Origin: a virus
IMG/VR virus record: IMGVR_UViG_3300010354_000609
Location: 1-24,811 of that record
Direction: 5' to 3' (one strand)
DNA length: 24,811 nucleotides
Of this stretch, positions 5,309-22,148 are shown piece after piece; within the stretch, counting starts at the first letter, position 1, and the number at the start of each line of letters is the position of its first letter. The notes under the pieces are model-generated. The model searched no databases and was not told the DNA's origin. It saw nothing but the letters and a program-made list of their open reading frames with translations. A program made the position numbers and the translations under genes.

Positions 5309-8300
5309 ATGGTTGATATAAAGAACATAGTATTGAATACTCCTGTTGAAACGCTAGAGCGTTTGTTGTCTCCGTTTATAGAAGAACAGTTTCCTTCTTT
5401 CATGCGTAGAGACTATAGAAAACTAGTTCTCTTTATCAAAGCGTATTATGAGTGGATGGAGCAGAGAGATAACCCTGGATTTGTTTTGTCTCGTTTGGAT
5501 ACCATCTATGATATTGATCGTAGTTTGGAAGAATTTTACAATCACTTCAAAGTAACATATTTGGATGGGTTTCCAGATATTTTGGCAACAAATACAAGCG
5601 GAAACAAACCAAATAAGAATACTCTCTTAAAGCATATACGCGACTTCTACGGTAACAAGGGAACCGAAAACGCCTATAAATTTTTGTTCAGAGTTTTGTA
5701 TGATAGTGATGTAGAGTTCTATTATCCAAAAGAAGATGTACTAAAAACATCAGATGGTAGGTGGGTTGAAAATGTTTCCATAAAAACAACATCTTCTAAT
5801 GGTTCCGTTCTGTTTAACGCTAGAGGAACAACTGTATACCAGTATATCGGAAACGCTCTTGTTGCATCTGCTGATATCGACAGCGTTGTGCAGTACAATC
5901 AAAACGGATACGAGATTACAGAATTTTTCTTGAAAAATTTGATTGGAAATTTTGTTAGTACTGATCCAATCGTTTTACTGATTAACGGAGAGCAGTATAC
6001 TGAAAATTTGTACAGCGTGCTTTCTGAATTTTTCATCGAAACCCCTGGAAAAAACTTTAGAGTCGGTGATGAAGTTTTTATCACAGATGAAAAGGGAACT
6101 GGTTTTTCTGCGTTTATTGAACAGACAGGTCTTGGTGGAACCATAAAGAAAATAGGCGTAAAAAACTCAGGCATCAACTATTTCAACACGGTTACGGTAT
6201 CGTTTATAAGTGAAACAGGAGATTTGAGTTCTGCTGTTGTATTTGCTTCTCCTACTGCGATAACCCGATACCCTGGATTTTATACAAACAATAGCGGAAA
6301 ATTGTCATCTACCAAAAAGATACAGGACGGAAATTATTATCAAGATTTTTCTTATGTTTTAAAAACAGCAGTAAGTCTTGACACCTATTTTCAAATTTTG
6401 AAAGAATTGGTTCACCCTGCTGGAACGCGAATGTTCGGGTCTATTTTGGTCAAAGATGTGTTGCAAAATGAACCAAACACATCTGTTCAAGGCACAGTTT
6501 TCCGAAACCCAATAGTCGGCAATTACACGCCATACGCTCTTCGCACATTCACCAATCTTCGCAACTCGACATTCTTGCCGAATCAAGTTGTTGGTGCAAC
6601 TCTTCAGGTGTGGTTGAGCACATACAATATCAATGGTGGTATTAGTGCTGGATTGACTGCAAATTGGGGTTACATTTTGCAAAATGGAACGATTGGATCA
6701 GACCCAGGTGGCAGAAGTGTAACCGTTGAAGATATTTTTGGTGTAAAGGATTGGATTAGTTTGGTTGGTGGACACACTTTTTCTCATGTGAATCTTTATC
6801 CCAATTCTAATGTTTGGTTGACTCCACATTTCAAGAAAGAAGCAATAAACACACACGCTTCTATAAATTTTAGACCAGTACAATACAACTTTAGTGGACC
6901 ATCACAGTTTAGTTCTCTGTGTTCTCATGGGTTTAGTGGACCGACTATGGGGCGTTTGGGTCTTACAGCATCTATTTCTTATTTTGCTGTAGTAAAACCA
7001 AACAGACTGACTACCGCAAATAATTATGGAGCGTATCAGACTGGTAATGTGTTGCTTGCTGACCACGGTGCTTGGGGTGGTTTGTTTTTTGGAGTGACAG
7101 GAAGCGGAAACAGTTTAAAAGATCCAAAGGTTTTTGCGTATGTTTATGCGTCCGCTTCTGCAATATCTGGTGTTTCTGGTAGCATAGGAACAACTGGTGA
7201 TTGGAAAATAGTTTCTAACACACACAGTATAGGTTCTGGAAATTCTGGACCATTTTCTTTGTTCTTGAACGGTGTGTGCTTGGGAACTGTTTCACAGGCT
7301 TTAGCAAAAAACAACAGTAGCGCAACCGCAACACTAATGATAGGTGTTGCAAAGAACGACTCTTTAAACGGAGCATTTGACGGAGAATTAGCAGAGATAA
7401 TTGCGTATCAAGGCGATGTTGGAGAAATCAACCGACAAAAAGTAGAGGGGTATCTTGCTCACAAGTACGGGCTTGCAGCCAACCTGCCGTCCACCCATCC
7501 GTACAAAACCACACCTCCTGGCGGCTCGTATGGCAGCGGAAAATGGTACGGAAACACAGGCGACTTTTATCCTAGTGGCTACAATCCGTATATTGGCTCA
7601 ACCGCAGAAGTGGGAATAAACGGAACCACTGCTCCTCTTGGTTCTGGATTCTTTTATACTCAACTTGGTTATACTTACACGGTTTGTGATGAGTTTGGCG
7701 TGACTGCACACAACCCTATTGGTGCTCCTCTAGGCAGCACAGCCGCTTGGTTTAGAGGCAGAGAAACCAACTTGTCTCCTGAAGGTATGCGTGGGCTTGT
7801 GTTGTGGCTCAAGCCTGAAAATATTGGTGTTTGTGGTTCTGTGGCGAATGGTGTCAGCGTTGATGTGTGGAGAGACGCATCACCATCAGGCAACGATGCC
7901 ATGCCACCCACATGGGACAAGTGGAACGGTGTCGCGCACATTACGCATACTGCAACTACAATCAGTGGCTGGACAAGACAGGTATATGACAATACAAATC
8001 CTGTCACAAAGATAGCGTTTGTGTTTAATGGTCTGTGTGGGGGATTCACACAGGGTAGACGCTGTAAGGTTGGTTTGAATACTGCTTCAGATGTAACGAC
8101 TGGCAATTATTATCCTGGAAATTGGGTGTATTCTCTCGGTCCAGTGGCAAGTGATACAACTGCCATACGAAGAGTCTATTACATAAACTTCGACAGTTCT
8201 GGCAACTATGAACAATCTAGTGAAATGTCTCCAACAATGGATGGATTCGATAATTCTGTGTTTGAAATGGAATATGTTGAGCCGAATTTGATTTGGAGAA

Positions 8301-11107
8301 AAGACGGCGTGGTAAAGCGTCAGAAGAATGTTGGTTACGGACAAACTTTTTATATGGATTCTGCTTTTTACTTGGAAACAGCAGACTCAAGCAGAACTGG
8401 CACATCAGTAACTATTACTGAACTATCATACAACGGCAACCCAGTAAATCCAACATTCACAGTATCTTCTGGAATGTCTGCCGTTAAATACGCAGGAGTC
8501 ACCGTAGACAAACTTCGTCCAACCCTTCAAACCGCATCAGCCAGCGGTGCTACAGGTGTGTCTTTCAACGGCGGCTTGGTGTTCTCACCACAGACCACAT
8601 ATCGTGGGGTCAGCCTTGCAGCAGGCATCTGCATGGGATTCACCGCAGCAGGTAGTAGTGCTGAAAAACTAATGACAGGTCAACACATGTATCTGAAGCG
8701 TCCTCTAAAGATTACAGACGATGCAGATATTTTTGTGGTGTATCGAAGCACACTAGAAGGTTTAAGTTACGGTTACGGGCTGCTAGCGTCTCGTAATACC
8801 AATGTTGCATACGGAAACAACCTGCGACTTGACTCGGTGCTGTTCAACCGTTCTTACAACGCAGAAGACCGAAATCCGTCACTACAGAACTCTTCGTATT
8901 ACACCATTCTGCCAAATGGAACTGTTCTGTATCCAGGTTCGTCGCTGCCTCCTGTCGGGCTTGTGGGTTTCCGTCCGCAGGGCGATGCTGTTGGAGCAGC
9001 ACAGAATTTTATTGCTTATGACCCACACCTTTCAGGTGTGTGCATGGGAACCTGTATTGGTGAGGCTCGCCGCGATTCTAATAACAAGATTGAGTCGTTC
9101 TTGAACGGAGATATTGCCACAAACTCGTCTCCTGTGACTGGACGCAGAATTGTTTCCGTATCTGCTCCACCAACAGACGATTTCATAATAACAAAAAATC
9201 TTGCAGTTCATTTTGACGCAGGAAAAACTAATTCTACAAGTTCTTTTACAAACGCTTACGATAAAAACCTTTTGTCTCTTTCTTCATTAGTTTTGAAACA
9301 AACGCCTATAAGTGTCATTTATCCAAATCAGGTTTGGAGCACTGATGGTCCTGGTGGTTCGGTTGTGGATTTTGGAGGAGAAACATATGGAACCGAGGTA
9401 GTGTATAAAGTGAATTTGGGCACAGGAACAGACAGATCAGTTTATCTAAACAATTTTGGCGGAACAAGATGGGACACTTCTTCAAGCGGATTAAAATCCC
9501 GCACATGGACTTTTAGCGTTTTGGTAAAAAGAAGTGATGGAGCAGCAATTACATCTGCCTCTGTTGCCATGTATACTGGTTCTTCTTACGGACAAGATAT
9601 CAGTATTGAACCAGCAACAAATATAACACCTGTTGGTAGCGACTGGTATCGGATTACAAGAACGCGAGTATTGAGTGACCCATATGTTCCTACTTTGGTT
9701 GGTCTTGCTTATTTCCAATCAGGAACAAACGAAATTTACATATCGCAAGCACAACTTTTACCGTTTGGTGATACTACAGATTTGTCTGGTATTGGCGGAA
9801 GAACCCTCGGGTCTTATCCATCAGGATATTCTATAAACGGTTCAATATCGAACAATTCTATCATTAGTTCTATAAATCCTTGGGGGTATGAAGAATTTGT
9901 TTGGGACACAAAAAATCACAACACACCAACCAAAACATCGTGGGCAAATGGTGGTTTTGATGTGGTTCCAAGGTTTACAGTAGATAACACTAAAACTTAT
10001 AGATTCTCTATATGGGTAAATAGAAAAGTTCTTGGAACCGATGGACGATTTTATCTTGGAACTTATGGTAGAAATTCTGCTGGAACCAATGTTGGTTTGA
10101 TACAGAGAATCTCGGGCGCAAACGATACCAATCCATATTTTGCATATCCAACACCACAAAGTAGTGCCTTTTCTGGAAAACAAAACCAATGGATATTAGT
10201 TGTTGGTCACATTCATCCCGCTGGAAGTGGTGTCGGTTCTGACCACCCTAATAGTGGATACTATGTTCGCTCTGGTAGTGGTTTGACCTACGCTTCATTA
10301 AGGCTAGCAAACAACAATGGTATGGGAGACTTTGTGTTCAGAACAGATACCCAAAATGTAGCATTTAGAACATATTTGTATTATTGCACAGATAATACTG
10401 TGGTTCAGCAAACGATGCGTCCACGAATTGATTTGGTTGACGGAACAGAACCAACAATAGAAGAGTTACTGAACAATCAAGACAGAACAATCTATGATGC
10501 AAGCCCAAACGGTAAAAATTTTGTGGCTACTAATTTCCCAATATGGTCATCAGAAAACCGTGGTGTTTTAACTTTTAGTGGTAGGAGAGATACTTTAAGT
10601 GCTGCCAATCTAAATGTTCCAAATCCAAACACCATGACATTTGAAGCGTGGATAAATCCAACATCTGTTCCATCAGGGATGTTCATGGGTTTTGGCGGTT
10701 TGCCATATTTTACAACTGATTACGGTAACAGTTATTTTCTTTCTTTAAACATATCAGGAAGACAGGTTGCTTATTCTAATATTGCATCTGGAAAAATTTT
10801 ACCCAATTCATGGCATCATTTAGCAACAACTATAGAACCAAACGATGGTGGAGTGCTCATAAAATCGTATTACAACGGAGAATTGGTGGATACTCGTCGT
10901 GAAATCGGAAACCATGTTTTAGAAAGTGGTAATGTGTTTTGTTTAGGAGACAGATTCCCTTCTTCTGGGTGGTTCCCACCACACATGGACGGAGGAGATT
11001 ATGCGTATAACGGTAAAATTTCAAACGCTAGGGTGTATTCTCGCACACTTACTCCAATTGAAATCAAGCAAAACTTCAACTCTTTGAGAAACAGATTCGG
11101 ATTATAA
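5309..11107 (+). CDS. gp7-position wedge protein fused to multiple LamG/ConA-like lectin domains
   Basis: A 1932-residue protein in the slot of T4 gp7. Residues 1-395 are a wedge-type N-terminus known in aquatic T4-like phages: an N-terminal helix (LVLFIKAYYEWMEQ), IRDFYGNKGTENAYKFLFRV, the FYYPKEDVLKTSDGRWV segment and LVHPAGTRMFGSILVKD. About 428-735 is a first LamG/ConA jelly roll ending in the typical LAEIIAYQGDVGE, GYLAHKYGLAANLPSTHPY tail. About 828-1285 is a second (GLVLWLKPENIGV, DASPSGNDA, then RPTLQTASASG, VSFNGG), interrupted at about 875-1062 by another ConA-like module and lacking its C-terminal strands. About 1291-1932 is a third, starting NLAVHFDAGK, interrupted by two sugar-binding-like modules, resuming at IYDASPNGKNF and finishing normally. 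It should anchor in the wedge and expose lectin-like domains outward. Domain edges are read by eye. Confidence 0.9.
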   Translation: MVDIKNIVLNTPVETLERLLSPFIEEQFPSFMRRDYRKLVLFIKAYYEWMEQRDNPGFVLSRLDTIYDIDRSLEEFYNHFKVTYLDGFPDILATNTSGNKPNKNTLLKHIRDFYGNKGTENAYKFLFRVLYDSDVEFYYPKEDVLKTSDGRWVENVSIKTTSSNGSVLFNARGTTVYQYIGNALVASADIDSVVQYNQNGYEITEFFLKNLIGNFVSTDPIVLLINGEQYTENLYSVLSEFFIETPGKNFRVGDEVFITDEKGTGFSAFIEQTGLGGTIKKIGVKNSGINYFNTVTVSFISETGDLSSAVVFASPTAITRYPGFYTNNSGKLSSTKKIQDGNYYQDFSYVLKTAVSLDTYFQILKELVHPAGTRMFGSILVKDVLQNEPNTSVQGTVFRNPIVGNYTPYALRTFTNLRNSTFLPNQVVGATLQVWLSTYNINGGISAGLTANWGYILQNGTIGSDPGGRSVTVEDIFGVKDWISLVGGHTFSHVNLYPNSNVWLTPHFKKEAINTHASINFRPVQYNFSGPSQFSSLCSHGFSGPTMGRLGLTASISYFAVVKPNRLTTANNYGAYQTGNVLLADHGAWGGLFFGVTGSGNSLKDPKVFAYVYASASAISGVSGSIGTTGDWKIVSNTHSIGSGNSGPFSLFLNGVCLGTVSQALAKNNSSATATLMIGVAKNDSLNGAFDGELAEIIAYQGDVGEINRQKVEGYLAHKYGLAANLPSTHPYKTTPPGGSYGSGKWYGNTGDFYPSGYNPYIGSTAEVGINGTTAPLGSGFFYTQLGYTYTVCDEFGVTAHNPIGAPLGSTAAWFRGRETNLSPEGMRGLVLWLKPENIGVCGSVANGVSVDVWRDASPSGNDAMPPTWDKWNGVAHITHTATTISGWTRQVYDNTNPVTKIAFVFNGLCGGFTQGRRCKVGLNTASDVTTGNYYPGNWVYSLGPVASDTTAIRRVYYINFDSSGNYEQSSEMSPTMDGFDNSVFEMEYVEPNLIWRKDGVVKRQKNVGYGQTFYMDSAFYLETADSSRTGTSVTITELSYNGNPVNPTFTVSSGMSAVKYAGVTVDKLRPTLQTASASGATGVSFNGGLVFSPQTTYRGVSLAAGICMGFTAAGSSAEKLMTGQHMYLKRPLKITDDADIFVVYRSTLEGLSYGYGLLASRNTNVAYGNNLRLDSVLFNRSYNAEDRNPSLQNSSYYTILPNGTVLYPGSSLPPVGLVGFRPQGDAVGAAQNFIAYDPHLSGVCMGTCIGEARRDSNNKIESFLNGDIATNSSPVTGRRIVSVSAPPTDDFIITKNLAVHFDAGKTNSTSSFTNAYDKNLLSLSSLVLKQTPISVIYPNQVWSTDGPGGSVVDFGGETYGTEVVYKVNLGTGTDRSVYLNNFGGTRWDTSSSGLKSRTWTFSVLVKRSDGAAITSASVAMYTGSSYGQDISIEPATNITPVGSDWYRITRTRVLSDPYVPTLVGLAYFQSGTNEIYISQAQLLPFGDTTDLSGIGGRTLGSYPSGYSINGSISNNSIISSINPWGYEEFVWDTKNHNTPTKTSWANGGFDVVPRFTVDNTKTYRFSIWVNRKVLGTDGRFYLGTYGRNSAGTNVGLIQRISGANDTNPYFAYPTPQSSAFSGKQNQWILVVGHIHPAGSGVGSDHPNSGYYVRSGSGLTYASLRLANNNGMGDFVFRTDTQNVAFRTYLYYCTDNTVVQQTMRPRIDLVDGTEPTIEELLNNQDRTIYDASPNGKNFVATNFPIWSSENRGVLTFSGRRDTLSAANLNVPNPNTMTFEAWINPTSVPSGMFMGFGGLPYFTTDYGNSYFLSLNISGRQVAYSNIASGKILPNSWHHLATTIEPNDGGVLIKSYYNGELVDTRREIGNHVLESGNVFCLGDRFPSSGWFPPHMDGGDYAYNGKISNARVYSRTLTPIEIKQNFNSLRNRFGL
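6590..7515 (+). other. LamG/ConA-like domain 1 within the wedge protein
   Basis: Encodes about residues 428-735 of the 1932-residue protein. Its first strand is LQVWLSTYNIN, the sheet region includes INFRPVQYNFSGPSQF, the penultimate strands are FSLFLNGVCLGT and ATLMIGVAKND, and it closes with LAEIIAYQGDVGEINRQKVE and GYLAHKYGLAANLPSTHPY. The FxGxxxEII, YL..KYGL and LPSTHPY signature is what complete copies of this jelly roll in phage fibre and wedge proteins end with. It is therefore a useful internal standard for spotting the truncated second copy. Confidence 0.7.
7930..8495 (+). other. ConA/SPRY-like module inserted inside LamG domain 2
   Basis: Encodes about residues 875-1062. It separates the opening strands of LamG domain 2 (LVLWLKPENIG through SGNDAMPPTWDKWNG) from its continuation (VTVDKLRPTLQTASASG). 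The insert has its own jelly-roll signature: CKVGLNTASDVTTGNYY, then MEYVEPNLIWRKDGVVKR and GQTFYMDSAFYL. These resemble the surface strands of ConA/SPRY-type domains found free-standing in phage adhesins. The boundaries are approximate. Confidence 0.5.
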
Positions 11108-11111
11108 GGAA
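9165..11111 (+). other. putative inserted cassette: LamG domain 3 with two nested carbohydrate-binding-like modules
   Basis: The stretch after the truncated LamG domain 2 up to the next gene start. It opens with the first strand of a LamG domain (NLAVHFDAGK). It then holds a jelly-roll module at about 9400-9780 (GSDWYRITRTRVLSDPYVP, EIYISQAQLLPFGD). A second module at about 9880-10470 follows (TYRFSIWVNRK, FYLGTYGRN, ILVVGHIHPAGSG, YLYYCTD, PRIDLVDGTEPTIEELL), a form recurring in aquatic phage adhesins. The LamG domain resumes at 10470 (IYDASPNGKNF) and finishes at 11104 (ISNARVYSRTLTPIEIKQNF). By eye it is more AT-rich than both flanks (8500-9160 and 11120-11480). Insertion is inferred from the domain order and composition. 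Confidence 0.45.
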
Positions 11112-11117
11112 GCACCA

Positions 11118-11669
11118 ATGGCTGACGATACATTCCTTCCACAACAAGAAGACCTGTTTGCTGCTGGACCAGAACAGTTCAACCCTGTGGACATTATTTT
11201 GGGCAGAATTGGAGCCAATGTTAGTTCGGGTGCAACAGGCACAGGTGTAACAGGTTCGGCTGCGTGGATCACATCGCTTCAAACCAACACCCCATCGTAT
11301 TCGTTCGGTGGCGTAATTAGTGAAATAATTGTGTTCGACCGTAAACTTCAAGAGGAAGAACGCCAACAGGTCTACGGATACCTGTCTCGTAAATACAACC
11401 TAGACTCCAAACTTCCTGATTCATACTACCTGTCACACCCAAGCACAAGCGAGTTAGGTTTAACATATTGGCAGATTGCTCACCACCCCAACTCTAAAGA
11501 CCTGTCTACGATTCCTGATGGTTCAGAATTTGCAGGCATAAATATCACAGATTTTTTCAATATACCAGAACTCATATACAAGTCCAAAGACACCGTTCTT
11601 TCTAGCGGAATCACCCTTGCGGGCGATACATATGGATATCTTGGTGTTAGTGGTGCTACTGGCACATAA
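11118..11669 (+). CDS. C-terminal half of a LamG domain plus conserved-looking tail, possibly split from the upstream gene
   Basis: A 183-residue protein that starts after its own SD (AAGGA at 11106-11110, 7 bases from the ATG). Residues about 25-105 are the end of a LamG jelly roll without its beginning: DIILGRIGANVSSG, then SFGGVISEIIVFDRKLQEEE and GYLSRKYNLDSKLPDSYYLS. This is the part that LamG domain 2 of the upstream protein lacks. The remaining 75 residues (YWQIAHHPNSKDLSTIPDGS, then GINITDFFNIPELIYKSKD) are not LamG and may be the C-terminal part of the ancestral wedge protein. Codons are C-rich in the first half, like the region around 8500-9160. Most likely a functional fragment started separately after an insertion; an independent small lectin-like virion protein is the alternative. 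Confidence 0.85.
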   Translation: MADDTFLPQQEDLFAAGPEQFNPVDIILGRIGANVSSGATGTGVTGSAAWITSLQTNTPSYSFGGVISEIIVFDRKLQEEERQQVYGYLSRKYNLDSKLPDSYYLSHPSTSELGLTYWQIAHHPNSKDLSTIPDGSEFAGINITDFFNIPELIYKSKDTVLSSGITLAGDTYGYLGVSGATGT

Positions 11670-19173: not shown

Positions 19174-19380
19174 ATGAGTAAATATATTCGTGATCCTAAT
19201 ACGGGGGCATTATATCTAAAAAATAAAGAAGCCCTAGCCCAAAGGGCACACGAAGAAACGGTGAATATAAATTTACACCATTTACAAGAACAGATAAATA
19301 CATTGACGGCACGGATAAGTGAACTAGAAACTCTTATAAGCACAGGACACAAATGGCAGCAAGCACAGGCCCAGACATAA
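19174..19380 (+). CDS. small coiled-coil virion-cluster protein
   Basis: A 68-residue protein starting one base after the preceding stop. The N-terminus YIRDPNTGALYLKNKEALAQ is a short motif (RDPxTGAL, then a charged helix) that recurs in small proteins of aquatic T4-like tail clusters. Residues about 30-58 form a heptad coiled coil (VNINLHHLQEQINTLTARIS, then ELETLIS). It overlaps the following fibre gene by 28 bases in another frame, so the two are probably translationally coupled and the fibre's ribosome binding site lies inside this gene. It may be a fibre-attachment or fibre-assembly protein; this is inferred only from position and coiled coil. Confidence 0.75.
   Translation: MSKYIRDPNTGALYLKNKEALAQRAHEETVNINLHHLQEQINTLTARISELETLISTGHKWQQAQAQT
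19293..19300 (+). promoter_or_regulatory. candidate T4-type late promoter element (GATAAATA)
   Basis: An exact NATAAATA match, the -10-like element of late promoters in T4-like phages, 52 bases upstream of the fibre gene that starts at 19353 and inside the small coiled-coil gene. By base composition about four such matches are expected by chance in a window this size, so its support is its position before a fibre gene only. Confidence 0.3.
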
Positions 19381-22148
19381 GCACATACGCCATTCCTGAA
19401 GTGGCACTTGGCGACACCTTCAACACTTGGAGGGATGTTACCAATACAAGCATTTATAAATTGAATAAAATGCGTGTGTACGATGGAGTTTCGTCTTCAT
19501 CTATCAGTATGTCTGTTGCTGGAGGTGGAACTCTTTCCGCTGATATTGCAGACAATGTTGATAAAGGCGTTAGTTTTATGCAACCTGTGGTGTTTCAGAG
19601 TGGTGTCACTTTTAATGGTGATGTTACATTCAACGCTTCCACATTTACCGTAAACGCCAACATAGTAACCATTGATGATTACGCTCTGATTCTTGGAAAC
19701 ACTGCTTCTGGTTCAAGTGATACTAAAATAAATCAAGCAGGTGGTGGTGGACTTCTGATTGACCGTGGTGGAAGCGGAAACACCGCAGAGTGGCTATGGC
19801 TACCACAAAGCATTCATGGCGTGACTGGCATGTGGCAAGCCAATGCCAATATTGGTATTAGTGGATCTACTTTTGGAATTTACGCAAGTGGTGCTGGTGT
19901 GCTACCAGTTCACGGTACTGGAATTCGTTTAGATGGTGGAAGCACAACCGACCACGGGCTACTAATAGAACTTACATCAACTGGTGCTGCTGGAATCACA
20001 TCCAATAGGTCAATTCAGTTTGAACGATATTCTCCCAGTGGTGTGACATTGTTTATGGAAGTTCTCAGCGGAAGCACATATGGTGCTCGTCCGTTTGTGA
20101 ATATCTCTGATGGAGCCAATCGAAAAACTATTTTTCAGAGCGGACACCCGTTTCAATTTGGTCAGGCAGTAAGATTTGATGGAGCGGTTTACCAGTTAGC
20201 ACAGGGAAACAATCCTGATAACGCAGAAGTTGTTGGAATTGTATCCAAAGTGATAAATGGAAACGAGTTTGAAATAACTTTCTTGGGTGAAATTTTTGGT
20301 GATTTTAGCGGTGCTCTTGTTGGTGGTGTAACAACACTTTCATCTGGTAAAACATACTATCTTGCACCTGATTCTGCTGGTAAAATCACAGCCACACAAC
20401 CAGTAACTCCTGGACAGATACACAAGGCACTTATGGTTTCTACTGGAACCAATTCTGCTGTTGTTCTTCCTTTTACTGGTGGTGTGTTGCAGAGTCCTAT
20501 TCAGATATCGTCTTCGTCTTCTGTTTCTACTAGAATCTCGCAGTTGAACAGATTTGTTCCTGGAGATGTTGTTAGATTTAAGGCATATCCTGGACCTGGA
20601 ATAACTCTTCAGTATTGGTTGCCATCACTAGGAGCAACCGCACAACAATATTTTTCGGATGGCATTTATGTAAAAGCACAAGCCAACACACCAGAAGAAG
20701 CAGAGGTGGCTGGAATGGTTGTGGCTGTTGGTGCAAGTGGTGAAGTAAATGCTTCGTTTGATGTGCTGATGGACGGATTTTTCAATCTGCCTAGTTTGCC
20801 GTATGGTTCTCCTCTTACTCCTGGAAGCGTTTATTTCCTTGGTACAAATTGTGTTGGTACAAGTGGATCTTTTGAAAGTTTGGTCAGTCCGCTATCAACT
20901 TCGCCAGCGTCAACAGAAGGACAGGTAAGAAAGCCACTGTTCATGGCCACATCTTCTGTTGGTGGATACTTGTTCTCGTATCGCGGAGATGTTCGTGGTG
21001 CTGCAACTGGAATTAGTTTTGCAAATCTAGACTTTTTCTTGATTCAGAATATTTTAGATGGTGTTAGTGGAGATTTAAGACTCGGTGTGTACAACGGTAT
21101 ACAATACGGTCGTGAGGTTATGCGTTTTGCTGCTGGTCAAAGTGGATTTGCCACAAGTGTTGGTGTAACTGGAAATGTTGGTATAGGTGGAGGATGGTCA
21201 GCACTAAATTCTGGCGCAAATGGAAATCGGATACTTTCGCAGTTGGATGTTCGTGGAGATGTTCGTGTTGGTGTTACTTTAGATAGTCTTGCTACACCAC
21301 AGGGTCGTGATCTTATAATTTCTAGATATACCACAGATGACATTTTATCAAATGGTTTAACTGCTGCTACATTTAATGTGGTTGGAACTAGATGGGGTAG
21401 TTCTAGTCTTGCAATAGGTCATAGTGTTCGTTCTGGTTTGAATTCAGATTCTTGGATTAGCAGTAATCCTGTAACCGTAGCCAAGAGTGCATTGGTTGTT
21501 GGTGTAAGTGGAAGTGACCCTGCATTGGTTTGGAAAACTGCTCCATCTGGTGCAGTTGCTCTTGGTAACACGGTTACTATGACTGACCGATTTAGCGTTG
21601 TTGGAAATACTGCTTCTTTTTCTAACATTAGTATTGTTGGAAATACTGCTTCTTTTTCTAGAGTTGTGACACTGGCTGGAGCAACTTCAAGTGCAATTAT
21701 TAGTTGTGCTACTGCTCCAACAGAAGGACAACATTTAACAAATAAAACTTATGTGGATAGTAATAGATTTGTTGCTGGAATGGTTGTTTATATGGCAGCA
21801 GGACAAGGCGCACCCGCAAACTTTTCTATGACTCTTCCTGCTGGAAGTTATAAGTATCATGTGCAACAAGACGGCAGAGTCAGCACAAATAAAGATGCGG
21901 CTGCTACCACGATAAGTGTAAGCACCTCTTGGAACGGAACTGTGGCATCAATAACTCAAAGTTTTCAAGAGTCTACAAGTGGTGGCGGTTGCGGTTGTGG
22001 AACATCCATGTTGTCTTCTGCCAGTGTTTCGGCAGTTTCTAATGCGTTTACTTTATCATCGGCAACAACTGCAACTTTTACATGGACTGCTTATACTGGA
22101 TGGAATGCTTATGGTTCTTGGAAAGTTATGGTAATTAGAACAGCATAA
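19353..22148 (+). CDS. tail fibre protein with repeated beta modules
   Basis: A 931-residue fibre protein. The N-terminus (VALGDTFNTWRDVTNTSIYK then LNKMRVYDG) is the attachment head found in many aquatic myophage fibres, followed by DVTFNASTFTVNANIVTIDD and the YALILGN beta-roll. Two copies of a module follow at about 264-379 (FGQAVRFDGAVYQLAQ, AEVVGIVS, KTYYLAPDSAGKI) and 397-548 (PGDVVRFKAYPG, AEVAGMVVAVG, GSVYFLG). The GNVGIGGGW repeat and LTNKTYVDS lie before a C-terminal receptor-end-like domain (AGSYKYHVQQDGRVSTNKDA, a GGGCGCG turn, then WTAYTGWNAYGSWKVMVI). A 12-codon tandem duplication lies near residues 749-769. AGGA at 19344-19347 is its SD. There is no S74 chaperone or collar domain. 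Probably trimeric; the receptor is unknown. Confidence 0.88.
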   Translation: MAASTGPDISTYAIPEVALGDTFNTWRDVTNTSIYKLNKMRVYDGVSSSSISMSVAGGGTLSADIADNVDKGVSFMQPVVFQSGVTFNGDVTFNASTFTVNANIVTIDDYALILGNTASGSSDTKINQAGGGGLLIDRGGSGNTAEWLWLPQSIHGVTGMWQANANIGISGSTFGIYASGAGVLPVHGTGIRLDGGSTTDHGLLIELTSTGAAGITSNRSIQFERYSPSGVTLFMEVLSGSTYGARPFVNISDGANRKTIFQSGHPFQFGQAVRFDGAVYQLAQGNNPDNAEVVGIVSKVINGNEFEITFLGEIFGDFSGALVGGVTTLSSGKTYYLAPDSAGKITATQPVTPGQIHKALMVSTGTNSAVVLPFTGGVLQSPIQISSSSSVSTRISQLNRFVPGDVVRFKAYPGPGITLQYWLPSLGATAQQYFSDGIYVKAQANTPEEAEVAGMVVAVGASGEVNASFDVLMDGFFNLPSLPYGSPLTPGSVYFLGTNCVGTSGSFESLVSPLSTSPASTEGQVRKPLFMATSSVGGYLFSYRGDVRGAATGISFANLDFFLIQNILDGVSGDLRLGVYNGIQYGREVMRFAAGQSGFATSVGVTGNVGIGGGWSALNSGANGNRILSQLDVRGDVRVGVTLDSLATPQGRDLIISRYTTDDILSNGLTAATFNVVGTRWGSSSLAIGHSVRSGLNSDSWISSNPVTVAKSALVVGVSGSDPALVWKTAPSGAVALGNTVTMTDRFSVVGNTASFSNISIVGNTASFSRVVTLAGATSSAIISCATAPTEGQHLTNKTYVDSNRFVAGMVVYMAAGQGAPANFSMTLPAGSYKYHVQQDGRVSTNKDAAATTISVSTSWNGTVASITQSFQESTSGGGCGCGTSMLSSASVSAVSNAFTLSSATTATFTWTAYTGWNAYGSWKVMVIRTA
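21598..21660 (+). repeat. 36-base in-frame tandem duplication in the fibre gene
   Basis: Two perfect 27-base copies lie at 21598-21624 and 21634-21660, giving a period of 36 bases (12 codons). They encode VVGNTASFSNIS followed by IVGNTASFSRVV. Identity at third codon positions shows that the duplication is recent. It lies just before the LTNKTYVDS motif. Confidence 0.9.

Follow-up and report, generated by a model that had tools for sequence, protein, structure and literature searches.

Proteins made in two pieces are known from T4-like phages, where nrdA of Aeh1 is split by insertion of mobE, gene 43 exists as 43A/43B, and the topoisomerase genes 39/60 of T4 are a further case; active enzyme is reported to form from the paired polypeptides of nrdA and of gene 43 (PMC2988022, PMC3653736). 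Similarly, the mitochondrial cox2 of scoliid wasps was split by insertional fission into two complementary genes (PMC5374615). The phage locus described here resembles the split genes of T4-like phages in that an inserted gene interrupts one that is otherwise contiguous, and each piece has its own start. The insert in T4-like phages is, however, a homing endonuclease or an untranslated spacer in an enzyme gene, whereas the present locus has received a lectin gene that is joined through its 5′ end to the gene it interrupts and retains its own stop, and the interrupted gene encodes a virion adhesin; moreover, unlike the T4-like cases, the split allele has lasted and is shared and exchanged across many lineages. 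The scoliid cox2 also differs, because it encodes a respiratory enzyme, its fission is attributed to a nuclease-bearing insert, and the split is found in one lineage.

The two chains of legume lectins are cut from one precursor. In the lectins of pea and lentil and in favin, these chains are joined non-covalently into a ConA-like jelly roll (PMC6359319). A comparable two-chain fold would be formed here, but from the products of two genes with a second lectin between them. That second lectin is, nearly end to end, one of the stand-alone phage LamG proteins (GPxIVTxGLVLxLDAxN...QNFNAxRGRFG); these are encoded by free genes, whereas the cassette is embedded in the LamG domain of another gene and has lost its start. 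Our search of the open-access literature turned up neither a report of LamG in the wedge of a phage baseplate nor a lectin-caused, horizontally exchanged two-piece protein in a virion adhesin.

The window, i.e., the whole 24.8-kb virus record from an environmental sample that was analyzed, carries a T4-like baseplate operon in the order gp5, gp25, gp6, a wedge gene, a 183-aa gene, and a gp8-like wedge gene. Its gp6 is only ~36% identical to that of the nearest isolates, which are Pelagibacter and Methylophilales myophages. The wedge gene (5309..11107, plus strand; 1932 aa in the ORF list) matches the baseplate wedge profile PHROG 17744 with an E-value of 6e-63 and lies between gp6 and the gp8-like gene, the combination that characterizes a T4-like baseplate wedge, so that it fills the gp7 slot of the order gp5-gp25-gp6-X-gp8; its C-terminal end is the inserted lectin. 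Elsewhere in the window, a 931-aa protein from a predicted fibre region (19353-22148) gave no PHROG match at E 1e-5. The wedge protein contains a first LamG domain, LamG1 (~6545-7557), which is itself an in-frame insertion that is found in the related loci L026, L027, and L035 and is missing from L002, L005, L006, and L007.

The second domain, LamG2, is the one divided between two genes. Its 5′ part (7793..9172, plus strand), as defined by alignment with intact and split relatives (A2, A7) and by the HMM matches h1 and h2, comprises all strands up to the loop after TGRRIVS; this half ends at ~9172 after ...NGDIATNSSPVTGRRIVSVSAP, where the domain breaks off in the long protein following ...SPVTGRRIVSVSAP. 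The strands that are known from relatives to come next (VDIILGRIGAN, FGGVISEIIVFDRKL, and the helix to LPDS) occur in the window only within the 183-aa protein, just as the original prediction, made from the sequence alone, had claimed in describing a LamG domain split between two genes by a lectin insert. The gene for this small protein (11118..11669, plus strand), delimited by alignments, the structural model of L005, and dN/dS, begins with a new leader of ~20 residues, followed from ~11157 by the last three strands and the helix of LamG2 (to ~11423) and then by a C-terminal linker shared with the backbone. A nested module of ~190 aa within the 5′ part of LamG2 (7926..8488, plus strand) has no counterpart in L005, as seen from the alignment and from the blastn segments shared by the window and L005 (7558-7925 and 8489-8523); it is also lacking in L016, L036, and L041, and its presence or absence is independent of the split.

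A search of IMG/VR with the 183-aa protein retrieved seven loci (L001-L007). In L005, L006, and L007, the homologue forms the C-terminal end of one undivided wedge gene (969-1361 aa), whereas in L001-L004 it is a separate gene, as in the window. Extending the search with the wedge N-terminus as query yielded 80 loci; of those complete enough to be judged, 29 are intact and 26 split; the latter count includes the window, L001, and a few near-duplicates. The uninterrupted orthologues (942-1755 aa) align end to end with the window 5′ half plus the 183-aa protein, and the split point is identical in all 26 split loci, a recurrence that places the pattern far beyond chance. The uninterrupted gene that the original prediction proposed to look for in related phages thus exists in L005, L006, and L007 and in 26 more loci, and the contrary arrangement, a small protein that is always separate and lacks a LamG partner upstream, was not seen: in 25 of 25 split loci with the upstream gene in view, the 5′ half of LamG2 is followed by the cassette, a stop, a spacer, and the tail gene. 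As with the split genes of T4-like phages, a contiguous orthologue is found in relatives, and both pieces are equipped with a stop, a ribosome site, and a start of their own. In the window, a TAA is followed by GGAAGCACCA, in which the Shine-Dalgarno (SD) sequence overlaps the stop (TAAGGA), and then, after a 10-nt spacer, by the new ATG (11105..11117, plus strand). This layout is common to all split loci, with 1-18 nt between stop and start in 26/26 and an SD-like site in 25. Two oddities were met among the relatives: the wedge N-terminal region of L079 lies in two overlapping frames (10001-10513 and 10402 onward), which may be a frameshift or another fission, and L025 has a second tail-profile match (388-699, E 7e-10) upstream, near the contig start and apart from the wedge gene. 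Searches of GenBank phages gave no match for the region at the nucleotide level or for the intact LamG2 protein, and only a 35-residue match for P0002, in Rhodothermus phage RM378.

The inserted cassette (9173..11107, plus strand) is missing from the intact relatives and, as had been foreseen, encodes another complete LamG with nested modules and a proper stop. It matches PF13385 with an E-value of 1.8e-19 (70.8 bits against a cut-off of 27.6; positions 5-151 of 151). An HMM built from 61 stand-alone phage LamG proteins (~230 aa, GPxIVTxGLVLxLDAxN...EIxQNFNAxRGRFG*) matches window aa 1727-1932 with profile positions 32-230 (E 1.4e-33) and aa 1293-1312 with positions 9-29, a short stretch that is weak alone (iE 1.1); the gap between them (~9245-10486, ~aa 1313-1726) is filled by two nested modules. 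The last residue of the HMM coincides with that of the long gene, i.e., the cassette ends exactly where stand-alone LamG genes end, and because of this match we conclude that a whole lectin gene, minus its first ~8 codons, was fused in frame to the 5′ half with its own TAA kept. One gene thereby became two. Scans of close relatives with the cassette alone gave no matches. The insert had also been described as AT-richer, which is correct relative to the halves of LamG2 (38.7% GC vs 49.5% and 47.2%); it is nevertheless close to the window average of 41.6%, the GC-rich outliers being the halves, and no consistent bias was found in the cassettes of other split loci. GC content was consequently rejected as a sign of recent insertion, and composition is weak evidence for insertion at all.

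An AF2 model of the intact LamG2 of L005, built on an alignment of 35 rows that included intact domains as well as the two halves of split domains, has a pLDDT of 90.2 and a pTM of 0.90 and shows the two sheets of a ConA-like jelly roll. Over residues 1-375, it resembles the tailspike of cyanopodophage Pan3 (VIA Z 16.2, rmsd 3.3, 217 aligned) and the lectin-type domain of an arabinanase (Z 14-15). Because PF13385 gave no match for LamG2 in the window half, the 183-aa protein, or intact L005, L007, and L016, the domain is named by its fold alone. The 5′ half in the window corresponds to residues 1-291 of the model, the split point is the loop at residues 291-296, and the strands 308-313, 317-321, and 345-354 together with the helix 360-373 come from the part encoded by the tail gene in split loci. 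AlphaFold modeling of the split L041 as a read-through product of 1072 aa, in which Gly replaced the TAA and the alignment had 12 split rows, was uninformative, with a pLDDT of 48 overall and ~30 in LamG2. We infer, rather than predict, a closed two-chain LamG2 domain.

Both halves are under purifying selection: dN and dS are 0.025 and 0.464 for the tail strands between the window and L001, and 0.124 and 1.64 for the LamG2 5′ half between the window and L002. Across 20 split loci, 5′-half distances and tail-strand distances show a correlation of 0.77, and the partial correlation after removal of the backbone and cassette distances is 0.60, a value reached by none of 2000 permutations. The tail strands correlate at only 0.15 with the C-terminal part of their own protein, which tracks the backbone, not LamG2. 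Individual pairs show the same pattern. L026 and L027 have 99% identical backbones, halves that are 85% and 100% identical, and cassettes at 30%; the window and L038 share both halves (81% and 89%) and differ in cassette (38%) and backbone (59%); and in L042/L036 and L024/L025 the backbones and tail C-termini are near-identical, with both halves changed jointly. A sign test on independent backbone pairs had only three pairs, all concordant (p 0.25), with type classes drawn after the tree had been seen. Furthermore, crossovers at conserved outer sites would on their own move the halves jointly and account for some of this pattern, which weakens the co-variation argument, although the co-variation is still strong support. 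The split could also have been conserved while its halves became uncoupled, with LamG2 closing with strands of its own and the 183-aa protein kept as an independent baseplate protein for its C-terminal connector. The new leader and the connector of the small protein, whose C-terminal part follows the backbone, would fit such independence. This explanation is unlikely, however, because the strand segment is the most conserved part of the small protein, co-varies with the 5′ half on the other gene and not with its own C-terminus, and is needed by the intact model. Reassembly in trans is likely, given that both halves are under purifying selection and co-vary despite the swapped cassette; on the evidence of co-variation and modeled structure, the two products would together complete LamG2. 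As to the cassette LamG, its dN/dS values are 0.64 (L075/L042), 0.44 (L041/L048), and 0.43 (L024/L078), and the split LamG2 5′ half evolves more slowly in two of these three pairs (dN/dS 0.08 and 0.06), the counts for L075/L042 being too small. In L075, L042, L041, and L048, the inserted lectin, LamG3 (9173-11107 in the window), appears to be under relaxed constraint or diversifying and is exchanged among phages, which is what a receptor-binding tip would be expected to show.

Introns and inteins abound in T4-like phages (PMC3653736), and a single protein might in principle be restored by an intron, an intein, a frameshift, or read-through of the stop. This is highly improbable: relative to the frame of the upstream gene, the tail gene is in frame 0 in 14 loci, in frame 1 in 5, and in frame 2 in 7, each with a stop and a start codon and 25 of the 26 with an SD, and these facts exclude read-through, frameshifting, and splicing as a general mechanism. 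Group I/II introns and inteins were rejected on the same distribution of frames, on the lack of any Rfam match up to E 1, and on the absence of an intein or HNH domain. Pfam, PHROG, and NCBIfam revealed no homing endonuclease in the insert, in which Pfam and NCBIfam found only lectin- or spike-type domains. The event is thus a gene fission caused by insertion, and neither an intron, an intein, a frameshift, nor an assembly error explains the split.

The direction and history of this fission were examined from the allele trees. On the wedge N-terminal tree, with or without an outgroup, the split and intact states change nine times, at least six of the changes being forced by well-supported branches, whereas the tree of the LamG2 5′ half requires one change, with weak support for the split-clade branch (56/67), and the tail tree is compatible with a single split clade (AU p 0.53). 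This difference makes it most likely that the split allele arose once and spread among phage lineages by homologous recombination. Split L002 and intact L013 share 89% and 84% identity in the flanks of L002:5377-8133, and L078/L020 and window/L005 likewise combine opposite states with similar surroundings and breakpoints within LamG2. The right crossover falls repeatedly in the conserved SEIIVFDRKL region of the tail gene (11322..11362, plus strand), where blastn places the breakpoints of window/L005 and window/L006 at 11322, of L002/L013 at L002:8133, and of L024/L078 at L024:12841. The usual exchanged unit is not the cassette alone but most of LamG2, the cassette, and the first ~66 residues of the small protein. 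Since unrooted allele trees alone give no direction and intact alleles may replace split ones by recombination, the split could be thought ancestral, with the intact genes derived by deletion of the cassette. That order of events has very little probability, because ConA-like domains, among them LamG1 of the wedge protein and those of the stand-alone LamG genes, are contiguous, the cassette constitutes an entire gene from a different family, and one group of intact alleles still has a linker (L064 IAASESAYNSEPVSLSRFG) similar to the leader found in split tails (L035 FPAAPEQYNSAPITISRFG); this similarity places the insertion just upstream of that stretch. An assembly or gene-calling artefact, conceivable because all data are metagenomic contigs, is the least credible explanation, since a variety of metagenomes yielded the arrangement on numerous independent contigs, and both parts are under purifying selection. 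The original view that an insertion cut the ancestral gene is thus borne out by the intact orthologues, but the cut is no private event of this phage: it is an old allele, common to about half of the family and moved by recombination.

Taken together, we consider it probable that a stand-alone LamG gene split LamG2 once, that the allele then spread by recombination, and that the two products are made together and co-fold as one jelly roll. LamG2 is located near the C-terminus of the wedge protein in this lineage, and in one allele class the loop ahead of its last strands contains a stand-alone phage LamG gene. The 3′ remainder restarts from its own SD and ATG within 1-18 nt of the stop and supplies three final strands, the helix that follows them, and a putative baseplate connector. 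Coupled translation across the 10-nt spacer could deliver both products side by side, and they would then join non-covalently. LamG2 would be a conserved scaffold completed by the 183-aa protein, which would pin the domain to its neighbors with its C-terminus as the baseplate connector, while the inserted LamG3 would be a free, fast-evolving, and exchangeable adhesin tip. A more tentative proposal, on which we are rather undecided, is that the two-gene lectin is an obligate two-part baseplate scaffold, secured by the small partner protein, with a free, fast-evolving, and swappable receptor-binding tip, and that the split allele might have been selected and have spread because it adds an adhesin while leaving the baseplate connection undisturbed.

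The locus offers a natural example, sampled many times, of one folded domain that two genes encode between them and that has survived both horizontal transfer and divergence to ~50-60% identity. Because intact and split alleles exist in very similar surroundings (L002/L013 and L078/L020), the cost, benefit, and assembly of a split domain are directly testable. The findings also suggest a route by which a phage baseplate may gain new adhesins, namely, that an entire lectin gene inserts within the loop of a lectin already present.
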